DNA of 43,052 bases from Bacillota bacterium. Its GTDB lineage: Bacteria > Bacillota > Clostridia > Oscillospirales > SIG627. Position 1 is the first letter of the stretch, and the number at the start of each line of letters is the position of its first letter. Shown in pieces: positions 2,188 to 43,052 of this stretch. A program made the position numbers and the translations under genes. The notes under the pieces were generated by a model that saw only the letters and a list, made by a program, of their open reading frames with translations, had not been told where the DNA came from and did no database searches. The stretch lies in NCBI GenBank assembly GCA_029006345.1, contig JAQXGK010000062.1, positions 1 through 43,052 on the forward strand, read 5' to 3'.

Positions 2188-2287
2188 AAACAGCCGCCTC
2201 AAAAGTGCGATGCTCCAAAGGACAGCTGCCTGAAACCGAATAGGGATATGACACACAAATCCCATGCTTGTAACGGTATAATACAAA

Positions 2288-2336
2288 ACTACCCGAAGAA
2301 GAGAAGAAAAAACTCTTTTTCGGGTAGTATTTTTTT
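2288..2336 (+). terminator. Rho-independent terminator after the antiporter operon
   Basis: A 10-bp stem, ACTACCCGAA (2288-2297) with TTCGGGTAGT (2319-2328), continues inward with AAGAG/CTCTT and is followed by seven T at 2330-2336. The 100 bp between the YgjV gene and the stem hold nothing I can identify. Confidence 0.9.
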
Positions 2337-2350
2337 ATGTAGTGATACTT

Positions 2351-2514
2351 CTTTGCTCAGCAAAGAGTGCCGATATGGAAGCCTTGCGGTTTCAGTGATG
2401 TTTTGTTCGCCGTTAAACTGCCGCAGGCAATAAAACTATGCAAAACCTCGAAGCAATATCACCCGCGTGCCGCGCGGATAAAACTGAAGAGTGTCCCTCG
2501 GGGGACACTCTTCA
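2351..2514. repeat. Cluster of short hairpins with ATAAAAC linkers, locus A
   Basis: This non-coding stretch between two convergent operons holds five palindromes: CTTTGC-TCA-GCAAAG (2351-2365), GAAGCC-TTGC-GGTTTC (2378-2393), TGCC-GCA-GGCA (2419-2429), CCGCG-TGCCG-CGCGG (2463-2477) and a 13-bp stem at 2485-2514. The third and fourth are each followed at once by ATAAAAC (2430-2436 and 2478-2484). The bases at 2382-2395, read on the minus strand, are CTGAAACCGCAAGG, identical to a hairpin arm and loop at 42826-42839. No convincing gene lies here. Confidence 0.6.
2485..2514 (-). terminator. Terminator of the rny-ymdB-spoVS operon
   Basis: A perfect 13-bp stem (TGAAGAGTGTCCC with its complement, loop 2498-2501) starts 21 bp past the spoVS stop codon. 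On the minus strand the stem is followed by GTTTTAT, a modest T-run. The position fits termination of spoVS. Confidence 0.7.
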
Positions 2515-40105: not shown

Positions 40106-42628
40106 TTATGCGGTAACGATTTTGCTTGCGTCCTGAAGATGGAGCTTTTCAATAGCTTCTTCGCGCATCTTGTACTTGAGTATCTTTCCTGCCGCATTCA
40201 TCGGGAAGGAATCGACAAAGTCAATGTATTTTGCAACCTTGTGCTTTGCGATACGATCGACCATGAATTGTTTGAGCTCGTCCTCGGTCAACGTTTCGCC
40301 CTCGCGGACAATGACGCATGCCATTATTTCCTCGCCGTACTGGGCGTCCGGAACGCCTATTACCTGAACATCCTTGACCTTCGGATGCGTGTAGAGGAAG
40401 TCCTCTATCTCCTTGGGATAAATGTTCTCGCCGCCGCGGATTATCATATCCTTGATACGGCCGGTTATCTTGTAGTAGCCCTTTTCGGTCCTGCGCGCAA
40501 GGTCGCCGGTGTGCAGCCAGCCGTTCTCGTCAATGGCCGCCGCGGTCGCCTCGGGCATCTTGTAGTAGCCCTTCATAATGTTGTAGCCGCGCGCCACAAA
40601 TTCGCCGTCGGTGTTGTCGGGCAATTCTTCGCCGGTTTCGGGATCGACTATTTTGCATTCGACGCCGAACATCGCTCCGCCGACCGTGTTGACTCTGTCT
40701 TCGATGGAGTCGGTGGTCTTGCTCATGGTACAGCCGGGGCTGGCCTCGGTCTGACCGTAGGTAATTACGATCTCGCTCATGTGCATCTTGTCGATGACTT
40801 CTTCCATTATCTTGATAGGACAGGGACTGCCCGCCATAATGCCGGTTCTCATGTGCGAGAAATCGGTCTTGGGGAAATCCTCGTGTCCGAGCATTGCGAT
40901 AAACATTGTCGGAACGCCGTGGAATGCCGTAATCTGCTCTTTATTGATGCAGTAGAGCGACTTGCGCGGTGAAAATGCCGTTATCGGGCACATGGTTGTG
41001 CCGTGTGTGACCGAAGCGGTCATGGCTAAAACCATGCCGAAACAATGGAACATAGGCACTTGTATCATCAGCTTGTCGGCGGTCGAAAGATCCATGCAGT
41101 CGCCGATAGCCTTGCCGTTGTTGACGACATTGTAGTGGGTCAGCATAACGCCCTTCGGGAAGCCGGTAGTGCCGGAGGTGTACTGCATATTGCAGACATC
41201 GTCCTTGTTTATCGACTTGGCTCTGGCGTAGACCTCGTCGACGGAAACCGACTTGCCGTGCTCAATCGCCTCGTCCCATGTAAAGCAGCCGTCCTGCTTT
41301 GAGTCGACTGTAATGATGTTGCGAAGCTCGGGCAGTCTTTCCGAATGAAGCTCGCCCGGCTTGCAGGATGATAATTCGGGGCAGAGCTGCTTCATTATTT
41401 CAACATAGTTTGAATCCTTGAAGCCGTCTATCATGACCAGCGTGTGCGTGTCGGACTGACGGAGCAGGTATTCAGCCTCGTGAATTTTGTATGCGGTGTT
41501 GACGGTAACCAGTACCGCACCGATTTTTGTCGTAGCCCAGAAGGTAATGTACCACGCGGGAACGTTGGTAGCCCAAATAGCGACGTGGTCGCCCTTCTTA
41601 ACGCCCATGGAAATCAGCGATCTCGCAAAGTTGTCTACATCGTCGCGGAATTCCGGATAGGTGCGCGTGTAGTCAAGCTCGGTGTAGCGGAAGGCGTATT
41701 GGTTCGGAAATTCCTCGCAGATTCTGTCCAGTACCTCCGGGAAGGTGTAGTCTATCAGGCGCTCCTTGGGCCATACATACTTGCCGGTCTTTGCGTGATT
41801 GTCCTGCAGATCGTGCTTGTGCTTTCTGTGATAGGGCGCCATAAAGTGCGCGTACTGCGGGAATACAATGCCCGCGCTCTCAAGCTCCCTTGACCAGCGC
41901 TTGACCCATTCGAGGCTTACATAGCCTGCATACCCGGCCGATTTCAGACCGTCCAGCATTTCCTTGAGAGGCAAATCGCCCTCGCCGCACATGCGGTATT
42001 CTATCTTTCCGTCCCGAATAATGCTGTCCTTGATGTGAACATATTTAATGTAGCTTCCGAGATTTTCAATCGGCTCGAGCGCCTTTTCGCCGGCGTAGCG
42101 ATAGGGGTGATGCACATCCCAGAGCGCCGCGACCGCCGGGCTTGCGACCTTGTCGAGAAGCGCCTTGAGACGCTTGGTGTCGCTGTACGCGCCGTTCGTC
42201 TCGACAAGCAGAGTGACCCTTGTACCCTCTGCCGTTTTTGCAAGACGTTTCAAAACTTCGGCGATTTTTTCATCGTCGATCTCCTCCGCCGGCTCGGGAT
42301 TGCCGTCGCAAAGTATGCGTATATAAGGGGTGCCGAGCTTTTTGGCGAGCTCTATATAGTTGGCAACCTCAGAGATGTTCTCCTCGGTTTTGCCTAAATC
42401 ATTCAGCGGGCAACCGGAGGATAGGCAAGCTATCTCAATTCCTAGTTTCTGTAGCAGTCCGATGGTCTCTACAATCTTTGCATCTGAAAAGGGTTGAGCA
42501 TTTACCGCATAAATGTCCTGACCGAGTCCGCGGATTTCTATTCCGTCAAAGCCGATGTCTTTTGCCATAGAATAAATATCCGACCAGCTGTACTCAGGGC
42601 AAGCAAGCGTTGAAAACGATATTTTCAT
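40106..42628 (-). CDS. TIM-barrel isomerase fused to an AMP-forming acyl-CoA synthetase
   Basis: One 840-residue frame with two enzymes. Residues 1-255 are a sugar-phosphate isomerase/epimerase-type TIM barrel: LVETNG with Glu143, WDVHHPYRY (Asp171, His174), KYVHIKDS (His198), and SLEW with Glu240. From about 290 to 835 is an acyl-CoA ligase: P-loop YTSGTTGFPKG (483-493), YGQTE (624-628), GWLHTGDL (703-710), GRIKDMIIRGGENIYPKEIE (723-742) and the catalytic Lys815 in NAAGK. The ligase half resembles the fatty-acid/short-chain FadD type. The start is ATG 42628, 9 bases after GGAGG; upstream frames to 42661 are rejected. A near-perfect promoter is at 42680-42708. The job of the fused pair is unknown. 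Confidence 0.92.
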   Translation of the reverse strand: MKISFSTLACPEYSWSDIYSMAKDIGFDGIEIRGLGQDIYAVNAQPFSDAKIVETIGLLQKLGIEIACLSSGCPLNDLGKTEENISEVANYIELAKKLGTPYIRILCDGNPEPAEEIDDEKIAEVLKRLAKTAEGTRVTLLVETNGAYSDTKRLKALLDKVASPAVAALWDVHHPYRYAGEKALEPIENLGSYIKYVHIKDSIIRDGKIEYRMCGEGDLPLKEMLDGLKSAGYAGYVSLEWVKRWSRELESAGIVFPQYAHFMAPYHRKHKHDLQDNHAKTGKYVWPKERLIDYTFPEVLDRICEEFPNQYAFRYTELDYTRTYPEFRDDVDNFARSLISMGVKKGDHVAIWATNVPAWYITFWATTKIGAVLVTVNTAYKIHEAEYLLRQSDTHTLVMIDGFKDSNYVEIMKQLCPELSSCKPGELHSERLPELRNIITVDSKQDGCFTWDEAIEHGKSVSVDEVYARAKSINKDDVCNMQYTSGTTGFPKGVMLTHYNVVNNGKAIGDCMDLSTADKLMIQVPMFHCFGMVLAMTASVTHGTTMCPITAFSPRKSLYCINKEQITAFHGVPTMFIAMLGHEDFPKTDFSHMRTGIMAGSPCPIKIMEEVIDKMHMSEIVITYGQTEASPGCTMSKTTDSIEDRVNTVGGAMFGVECKIVDPETGEELPDNTDGEFVARGYNIMKGYYKMPEATAAAIDENGWLHTGDLARRTEKGYYKITGRIKDMIIRGGENIYPKEIEDFLYTHPKVKDVQVIGVPDAQYGEEIMACVIVREGETLTEDELKQFMVDRIAKHKVAKYIDFVDSFPMNAAGKILKYKMREEAIEKLHLQDASKIVTA

Positions 42629-42679
42629 CTTTTTCATCCTCCGTTTCTTTATTTTTTGCATAATAAATGCTTAGAAGCT

Positions 42680-42708: not shown

Positions 42709-42826
42709 GCGTGAAAACCGCCAATATTATCGCTGAAATAGCCGCATAGATAACAGCAAAATCACTTATACGCGTTCGCCCGGAATACAATTGCCGCATC
42801 GATGACCCGAGCGAATAAAATACCCC

Positions 42827-42898
42827 TGAAACCGCAAGGTTTCAATAAAACTTTTGGCTTGCCAAAAATAAAACTCCGTACGCAGTACGGAATATAAC
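42827..42898. repeat. Three tandem short hairpins with ATAAAAC linkers, locus B
   Basis: TGAAACC-GCAA-GGTTTCA (42827-42844), TTTTGGC-TT-GCCAAAA (42852-42867) and TCCGTAC-GCA-GTACGGA (42875-42891) are each perfect 7-bp hairpins. They are separated by identical 7-base linkers ATAAAAC (42845-42851 and 42868-42874), and ATATAAC follows the third. The stem sequences differ from each other, so this is a regular array of structures, not a plain sequence repeat. Confidence 0.8.
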
Positions 42899-43052
42899 TT
42901 GAAAAACTTATATTTTTTCTGTCATTTAACAGCGGTAAAGATTAAAGAAGATTTCTGTGAAAAGGGCGACATAATCTCTATAAGATATTGGATCAATACA
43001 TTTTGGGTTGACAACTCAGTTTAGAAAAGTAACTTATGTATAAAAAAAGGAA
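42899..43052 (+). other. Leader of a gene beyond the right edge
   Basis: Non-coding AT-rich DNA. TTGACA lies at 43008-43013 but has no good -10 box at 16-18 bp. The window ends in AAAAAAAGGAA, which looks like a Shine-Dalgarno site, so a plus-strand gene probably starts within a few bases of the edge. The rest of 42709-42826 also shows no gene. Confidence 0.35.

Follow-up and report, generated by a model that had tools for sequence, protein, structure and literature searches.

The window analysed here is a stretch of 43,052 nucleotides from a Bacillota bacterium of the order Oscillospirales (GCA_029006345.1, contig JAQXGK010000062.1, positions 1 to 43,052). Near its right-hand end lies the gene for an unusual fusion protein of 851 amino acids, in which a xylose-isomerase-like TIM barrel (AP_endonuc_2) is joined to a CoA-ligase module (AMP-binding/AMP-binding_C). 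Beyond this gene is an array of three hairpins joined by 7-base linkers. The original prediction, made from the letters of the sequence, described three perfect 7-bp hairpins of regular spacing, and these are real: each stem has seven perfect pairs, the loops are of 4, 2 and 3 nt, and the repeat lengths of 25, 23 and 24 bases are correct. Some details need amendment. The array occupies 42827–42898, its first hairpin beginning at 42827 and not at 42826. The shared linker, ATAAAAC, holds for the first two linkers; the third is ATATAAC. And GTTTTAT, said to follow each stem on the minus strand, follows two of the three, the remaining one being followed by GGGGTAT. The features of the window are collected in Table 1, labelled according to the grammar described below.

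Table 1. Features of the window that belong to, or neighbour, the two copies of the element
Feature	Position	Strand	Basis
851-aa fusion protein, AP_endonuc_2 with AMP-binding/AMP-binding_C	40106–42661	-	
Core GCGAATAAA, at the inner end of the element's right arm	42811–42819	+	sequence, parsed copies
Linker R1, ATACCCC, decayed (consensus ATATCAC)	42820–42826	+	sequence, parsed copies
Hairpin H5, TGAAACC-GCAA-GGTTTCA	42827–42844	+	hairpin search, covariation
Linker R2, ATAAAAC	42845–42851	+	sequence, parsed copies
Hairpin H6, TTTTGGC-TT-GCCAAAA	42852–42867	+	hairpin search, covariation
Linker R3, ATAAAAC	42868–42874	+	sequence, parsed copies
Hairpin H7, TCCGTAC-GCA-GTACGGA	42875–42891	+	hairpin search, covariation
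Linker R4, ATATAAC	42892–42898	+	sequence, parsed copies
TTGAAA where cargo copies have the promoter TTGAAA-17-TATAAT; no TATAAT here	42899–42930	+	sequence
Second, fuller copy of the element, both arms	2213–2514 (about)	-	DNA and covariance-model searches
Second copy, H0-type hairpin	about 2487–2514		
Second copy, right arm	2324–2410	-	
Second copy, right-end motif	about 2213–2226		
Second copy, long hairpin ACTACCCGAAGAAGAG..CTCTTTTTCGGGTAGT, on the side opposite the H0-type hairpin			

The window contains 38 perfect 7-bp hairpins, and a single triple of them spaced 5–9 nt apart. Linker–hairpin arrays of at least two units occurred in none of 20 shuffled windows. Folded as RNA and compared with shuffles, the array stretch gives z = -3.95 for the plus strand and -2.41 for the minus strand. 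The strict pattern ATAAAAC-N18-ATAAAAC had no match, its spacing being too exact; a search of the whole genome by linker spacing identified two further places, on contigs C109 and C85. C109 carries a strain variant of the window locus. Over its first ~240 bases it corresponds to the part of the window that precedes the array, and it then runs on past the end of the window's contig to ferredoxin-like and PSP1-domain genes, both on the minus strand. The region, which had been described as divergent, is probably not so, for the ferredoxin-like gene is on the strand of the fusion gene. The C109 allele keeps all three of the window's hairpins (H6 with one T-G wobble), and adds a set of left hairpins joined by GTTTTAT or GTTATAT. 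On C85, hairpins flank a core on both sides. What had been taken for a free-standing array is one arm of a larger element, whose degenerate linker motif appears here in one of its variants.

DNA searches found full-length copies of this element on C57, C73, C85, C78, C38 and C4, as well as the second copy in the window (Table 1). A covariance model of the right arm gave 16 matches in the window's genome, three of the top ones being members of its own training set (which included L001, L002 and L003); the 94.5 bits scored by the window array are, with this training set, partly a matter of construction. At C57, C78, C38, C73 and C85 both arms were matched, in opposite orientation. The element is present in 27 of 58 genomes (the window's own and those of relatives), with up to 18 matches per genome, and 48 copies were parsed with one grammar. 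The left half reads H0 – L1 (GTTTTAT) – H1 (TCGCC..GGCGA) – L2 – H2 (TGCTTCGCA) – L3 – H3 – L4 – H4. After H4 come GTTT.., the core GGCGAATAAAA, and then R1 – H5 – R2 – H6 – R3 – H7 – R4. The left arm consists of three to four hairpins joined by GTKNTAT; the right arm consists of three, joined by the same linker inverted (ATATCAC, ATAACAC, ATAAAAC or ATATAAC). Once the right linkers are reverse-complemented, both arms conform to one degenerate consensus, GTKNTAT. What follows R4 differs between copies: some have a long hairpin, others a sigma-70-type promoter with one or two cargo genes and a terminator behind it. The element's right end bears an imperfect inverted match to H0, right ends resembling the 5' half of H0 in inverse orientation (e.g. 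TTGCGAGACTTCTCATAAGGA / AACGGCTACTTCTCATAAGGA). Copy L094 differs from most in that its right end repeats the whole H0 hairpin without change (TGAGGCACACTCCGTAAGGAAGTGTGCCTC); most right ends have a half-copy. Two arrays near PF05635 genes (L300 and L305) use the linker ACATCAC/GTGATGT, a further variant of the family. Another high-copy repeat family of genome G013 adjoins the element at L140 (4500–4701) and at G013:C25.

The stems covary. In H5–H7, 94% of the cells are paired and all 21 pairs show double changes; the covariation score is 0.61, against 0.175 for shuffled alignments (reached in 0 of 500 shuffles), and alignments slid out of register all score 0.095 or less. The stems are 0.89–0.99 Watson–Crick, compared with 0.55–0.61 when shuffled. 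The search for further copies and the covariance test put forward with the original prediction returned many copies and strong covariation, not the absence of both. This leaves next to no probability that the array is a chance cluster of palindromes unrelated to other sequences. Short repeats in two copies are often due to chance, but triples of this kind occurred in none of 100 simulated (Markov-1) windows, the C109 allele retains the array and adds units to it, and the model matches in the genome, even with the three from the training set among them, together with the covariation already refute the idea.

Complementarity also extends between the arms. In complete copies, the core GGCGAATAAAA is complementary to TTTTATTCGCC of the left arm; L1 and the 5' half of H1 are complementary to the core. 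One double change follows clades: among 29 copies, 19 have GTTTTAT/AATAAAA and 7 have GTTCTAT/AATAGAA. Folded as one strand, a full copy forms a compact tree with its arms paired, and the C109 copy folded as DNA gives z = -3.8. Covariation between the linkers of the two arms was considered but is not supported: their complementarity is about equal in shuffled pairings, and most z values lie near 0. One register, L-1 with R3, reaches z = 4.7, and the one-strand folds do pair the arms, despite linker pairings near the shuffled level.

Some copies carry cargo. A sigma-70-type promoter begins 0–2 bases after R4 in 14 of 48 copies, compared with 43 of 4000 random windows. Genes in complete cargo copies encode 23S_rRNA_IVP (PF05635), a methyltransferase, a HAD hydrolase, an AraC-Cass2 regulator, a DMP19-like protein and unknown proteins; the translations of others, by inspection, suggest a GNAT acetyltransferase, a TetR-type regulator and a PfkB-type kinase. 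None of the copies examined was seen to contain a transposase, recombinase or reverse transcriptase, and the cargo copies examined included no autonomous element sharing these ends. Two candidates for an associated protein were considered and set aside. RAYT/Y1 transposases (PF01797), the enzymes that move REP/BIME and here a candidate for the mover, have 0 matches in the window's genome, which is 94% complete. The IVP protein is not obligatory to the element: an array lies near only 6 of 30 fetched PF05635 genes, and many cargo copies are without PF05635.

The copies have moved. Genome G044 contains four that are 94–97% identical over ~290 bp, and their upstream flanks are only 36–40% identical, the level of unrelated sequences. 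Immediately outside the element's ends, in many copies, lie the two halves of an intrinsic terminator, different for each copy (e.g. AAAAAATCACGGAC | element | GTCCGTGATTTTTT, and AAAAATTGCAGGAG | element | CTCCTGCAATTTTT). Scored blindly, the flanks of 15 of 41 copies contained a matching terminator stem, with a score that 0.7% of flank pairs attain when mismatched. A search further downstream found the partner half for most cargo-bearing copies, 0.75 to 1.7 kb away; an automatic table of the junctions includes a few spurious rows, L042 and L105 having been matched to the wrong downstream place. Named genomes were searched as a further set, and of their 63 copies with H0, 24 lie within exact terminator halves, and more do so with mismatches; many copies of this set lack an exact outer stem, part of them running off contig ends or needing mismatches. 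The named set comprises Clostridia or Oscillospiraceae MAGs, mostly from ruminant gut, and is not fully independent, a few of its contigs being records also used as relatives (e.g. L177 and L225). Nearly all of the genomes used in this work are metagenome assemblies.

Two comparisons with empty sites are in keeping with insertion. In genome G017, element L130 follows a gene whose translation resembles an ABC-transporter permease; five congeners have, directly behind this gene, a terminator that is intact (e.g. AAAAGTGTCGGCATTTTGCCGACACTTTTTT). Element L140 of G013 likewise corresponds to an uninterrupted terminator in G016 and G017. The terminators at these sites have diverged between the species, and the sites match by position rather than base by base. 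No clear empty site emerged from a first search, which covered the genus of G044. The junctions inspected displayed no consistent target-site duplication, and the empty sites are diverged. Plasmids searched for the element gave no match. A phage search gave one partial match, and IMG/VR one contig with phage genes (L380), which has a two-armed copy at 1300–1800 and capsid- and protease-like phage genes on one side. This contig is possibly a vehicle, or possibly misjoined.

These insertion sites bear on whether the element is punctuation, that is, a bidirectional terminator or an insulator, kept by selection on the host and copied by ordinary recombination. H0 followed by GTTTTAT, and the long hairpin on the right, do resemble terminators, and the copies are intergenic and adjoin gene ends. 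Yet where the insertion site is visible there was a terminator already, which the element splits; the arms, with their hairpins and linkers, are unnecessary for termination; and near-identical copies have different outer host stems. We regard this explanation as very improbable. Nor does it seem to be the purpose of the individual stems to act as weak terminators, as had been suggested. The GTKNTAT linkers are not T-tracts, they are conserved, inverted, in both arms, and separate, strong terminator-like hairpins occupy the ends of the element. The original prediction had offered selection on structure or a mobile palindromic element, and both apply: the stems covary, and copies of nearly identical sequence are found within host terminators at unrelated places.

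The window array comprises the core, R1 to R4 and H5–H7 of the element, and has neither left arm nor cargo. The flanking halves of a host terminator, and H0, were looked for at the locus, and neither was seen. The 32 positions beyond R4 may be a decayed promoter (Table 1); identity to the promoter region of L045 is only 48% over the whole stretch. Probably a copy of the dispersed mobile element has decayed here and the array is what survives of it, its right arm; the copy is most likely an immobile relic that has lost its left arm, H0 and cargo. By itself, as a relic, the window array is ordinary.

The left arm has a name already. Gut-1 (RF01706) was listed by Weinberg et al. in 2010 as a certain RNA, not cis-regulatory, and from human gut metagenomes only (PMC2864571). 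Like the element, it consists of variable hairpins on a fixed 7-nt linker, GUGAAAU in Gut-1 and GTKNTAT here. Left arms score above the Gut-1 gathering cutoff (50 bits) in 8 of 20 loci from relatives, and two matches in the window's own genome also exceed it. Across the class, 39 of 391 genomes have a match above the cutoff, and 64 of 391 one at E = 0.001 or better. The right arm has the Gut-1 trait of at least three covarying hairpins on a conserved 7-nt linker, on the opposite strand. The window array itself (locus L004) has no match to Gut-1 even at E = 10, and an Rfam scan of the window at the gathering level found only a tRNA; the array is therefore not filed as a member of Gut-1. It is the mirror (right) arm of an element whose other arm is Gut-1. 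In distant families of Clostridia (L345–L364, e.g. L346, L347, L349 and L355), canonical GUGAAAU Gut-1 copies are mostly situated directly behind complete terminators, and these often belong to tRNA genes. A literature search, with most subscription journals and all preprints outside its scope, found RF01706 named only in the 2010 paper, and found no account of terminator-loop cassettes or of this family.

Gut-1 was first proposed as a structured noncoding RNA, and the copies could, accordingly, be a multi-gene family of such RNAs. The rating of Gut-1 as certain (PMC2864571), the strong covariation of the stems, and the RNA fold of the full element (-103.8 kcal/mol, z = -10) all agree with this. 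DNA hairpins also covary, however, and the description of Gut-1 as a stand-alone RNA differs from what we find, which is part of an element with two arms, multiple copies and cargo genes. The sole promoter found in cargo copies follows the array and points away from it, and therefore would not transcribe the arms. The two arms share a linker word only as double-stranded DNA; a single strand displays two different words. And the copies differ both in the terminators they have entered, which are unrelated, and in their cargo. On balance we consider the RNA explanation unlikely.

The family is best read, instead, as a non-autonomous mobile cassette that inserts into the loops of terminators and is moved in trans. 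Other repeats offer partial parallels. BOX and RUP of pneumococcus, REP/BIME and MITEs are likewise non-coding, dispersed, intergenic, modular stem-loops without a transposase of their own. The element differs from them in its fixed 7-bp linkers, inverted about a core, in its position inside terminator hairpins, and in its cargo genes with abutting promoter; neither an autonomous parent nor a clear target duplication was found for it. Like integron cassettes, it carries single, diverse cargo genes (0.7–1.7 kb) and has folded end structures. Unlike them, it has its own promoter and terminators and is scattered in the genome rather than gathered in one array; no attC-like site or integrase was recognised, and the scanned cargo proteins included no integrase. 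Group IIC introns target terminator hairpins. The element, in contrast, lies inside the hairpin and not behind it; no reverse transcriptase was present in the cargo scanned, and the loci scanned had no Rfam match to group II introns. The intervening sequences of 23S rRNA occupy the loops of rRNA hairpins and encode a PF05635 protein. PF05635 is a frequent cargo of the element too, but the element is not in rRNA.

How might such a cassette operate? The element would insert at the tip of terminator hairpins. An enzyme acting in trans would recognise the folded arms, with their covarying hairpins, or the inverted linkers, or both. H0 at one end and terminator-like hairpins at the opposite one would restore termination and insulate host genes and cargo from one another. 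Tentatively, and short of thinking it probable, we suggest that these elements may represent a new class of mobile gene cassette in Clostridia: a folded, two-armed strand, inserted into terminator loops by an enzyme of the host or a helper, that delivers single genes with their own promoter and terminators, and of which Gut-1 is one arm.

The orphan family Gut-1 gains a concrete identity from this analysis: what was presumed to be a noncoding RNA becomes a component of a mobile element, and as such accessible to testing. PF05635 cargo links the element to the intervening sequences of 23S rRNA; both reside in hairpin loops, and the mobility of both is unexplained. Insertion into terminator loops is a nearly harmless niche, in that genes are avoided and the element supplies terminators of its own, and cargo can therefore spread through gut Clostridia at little cost.
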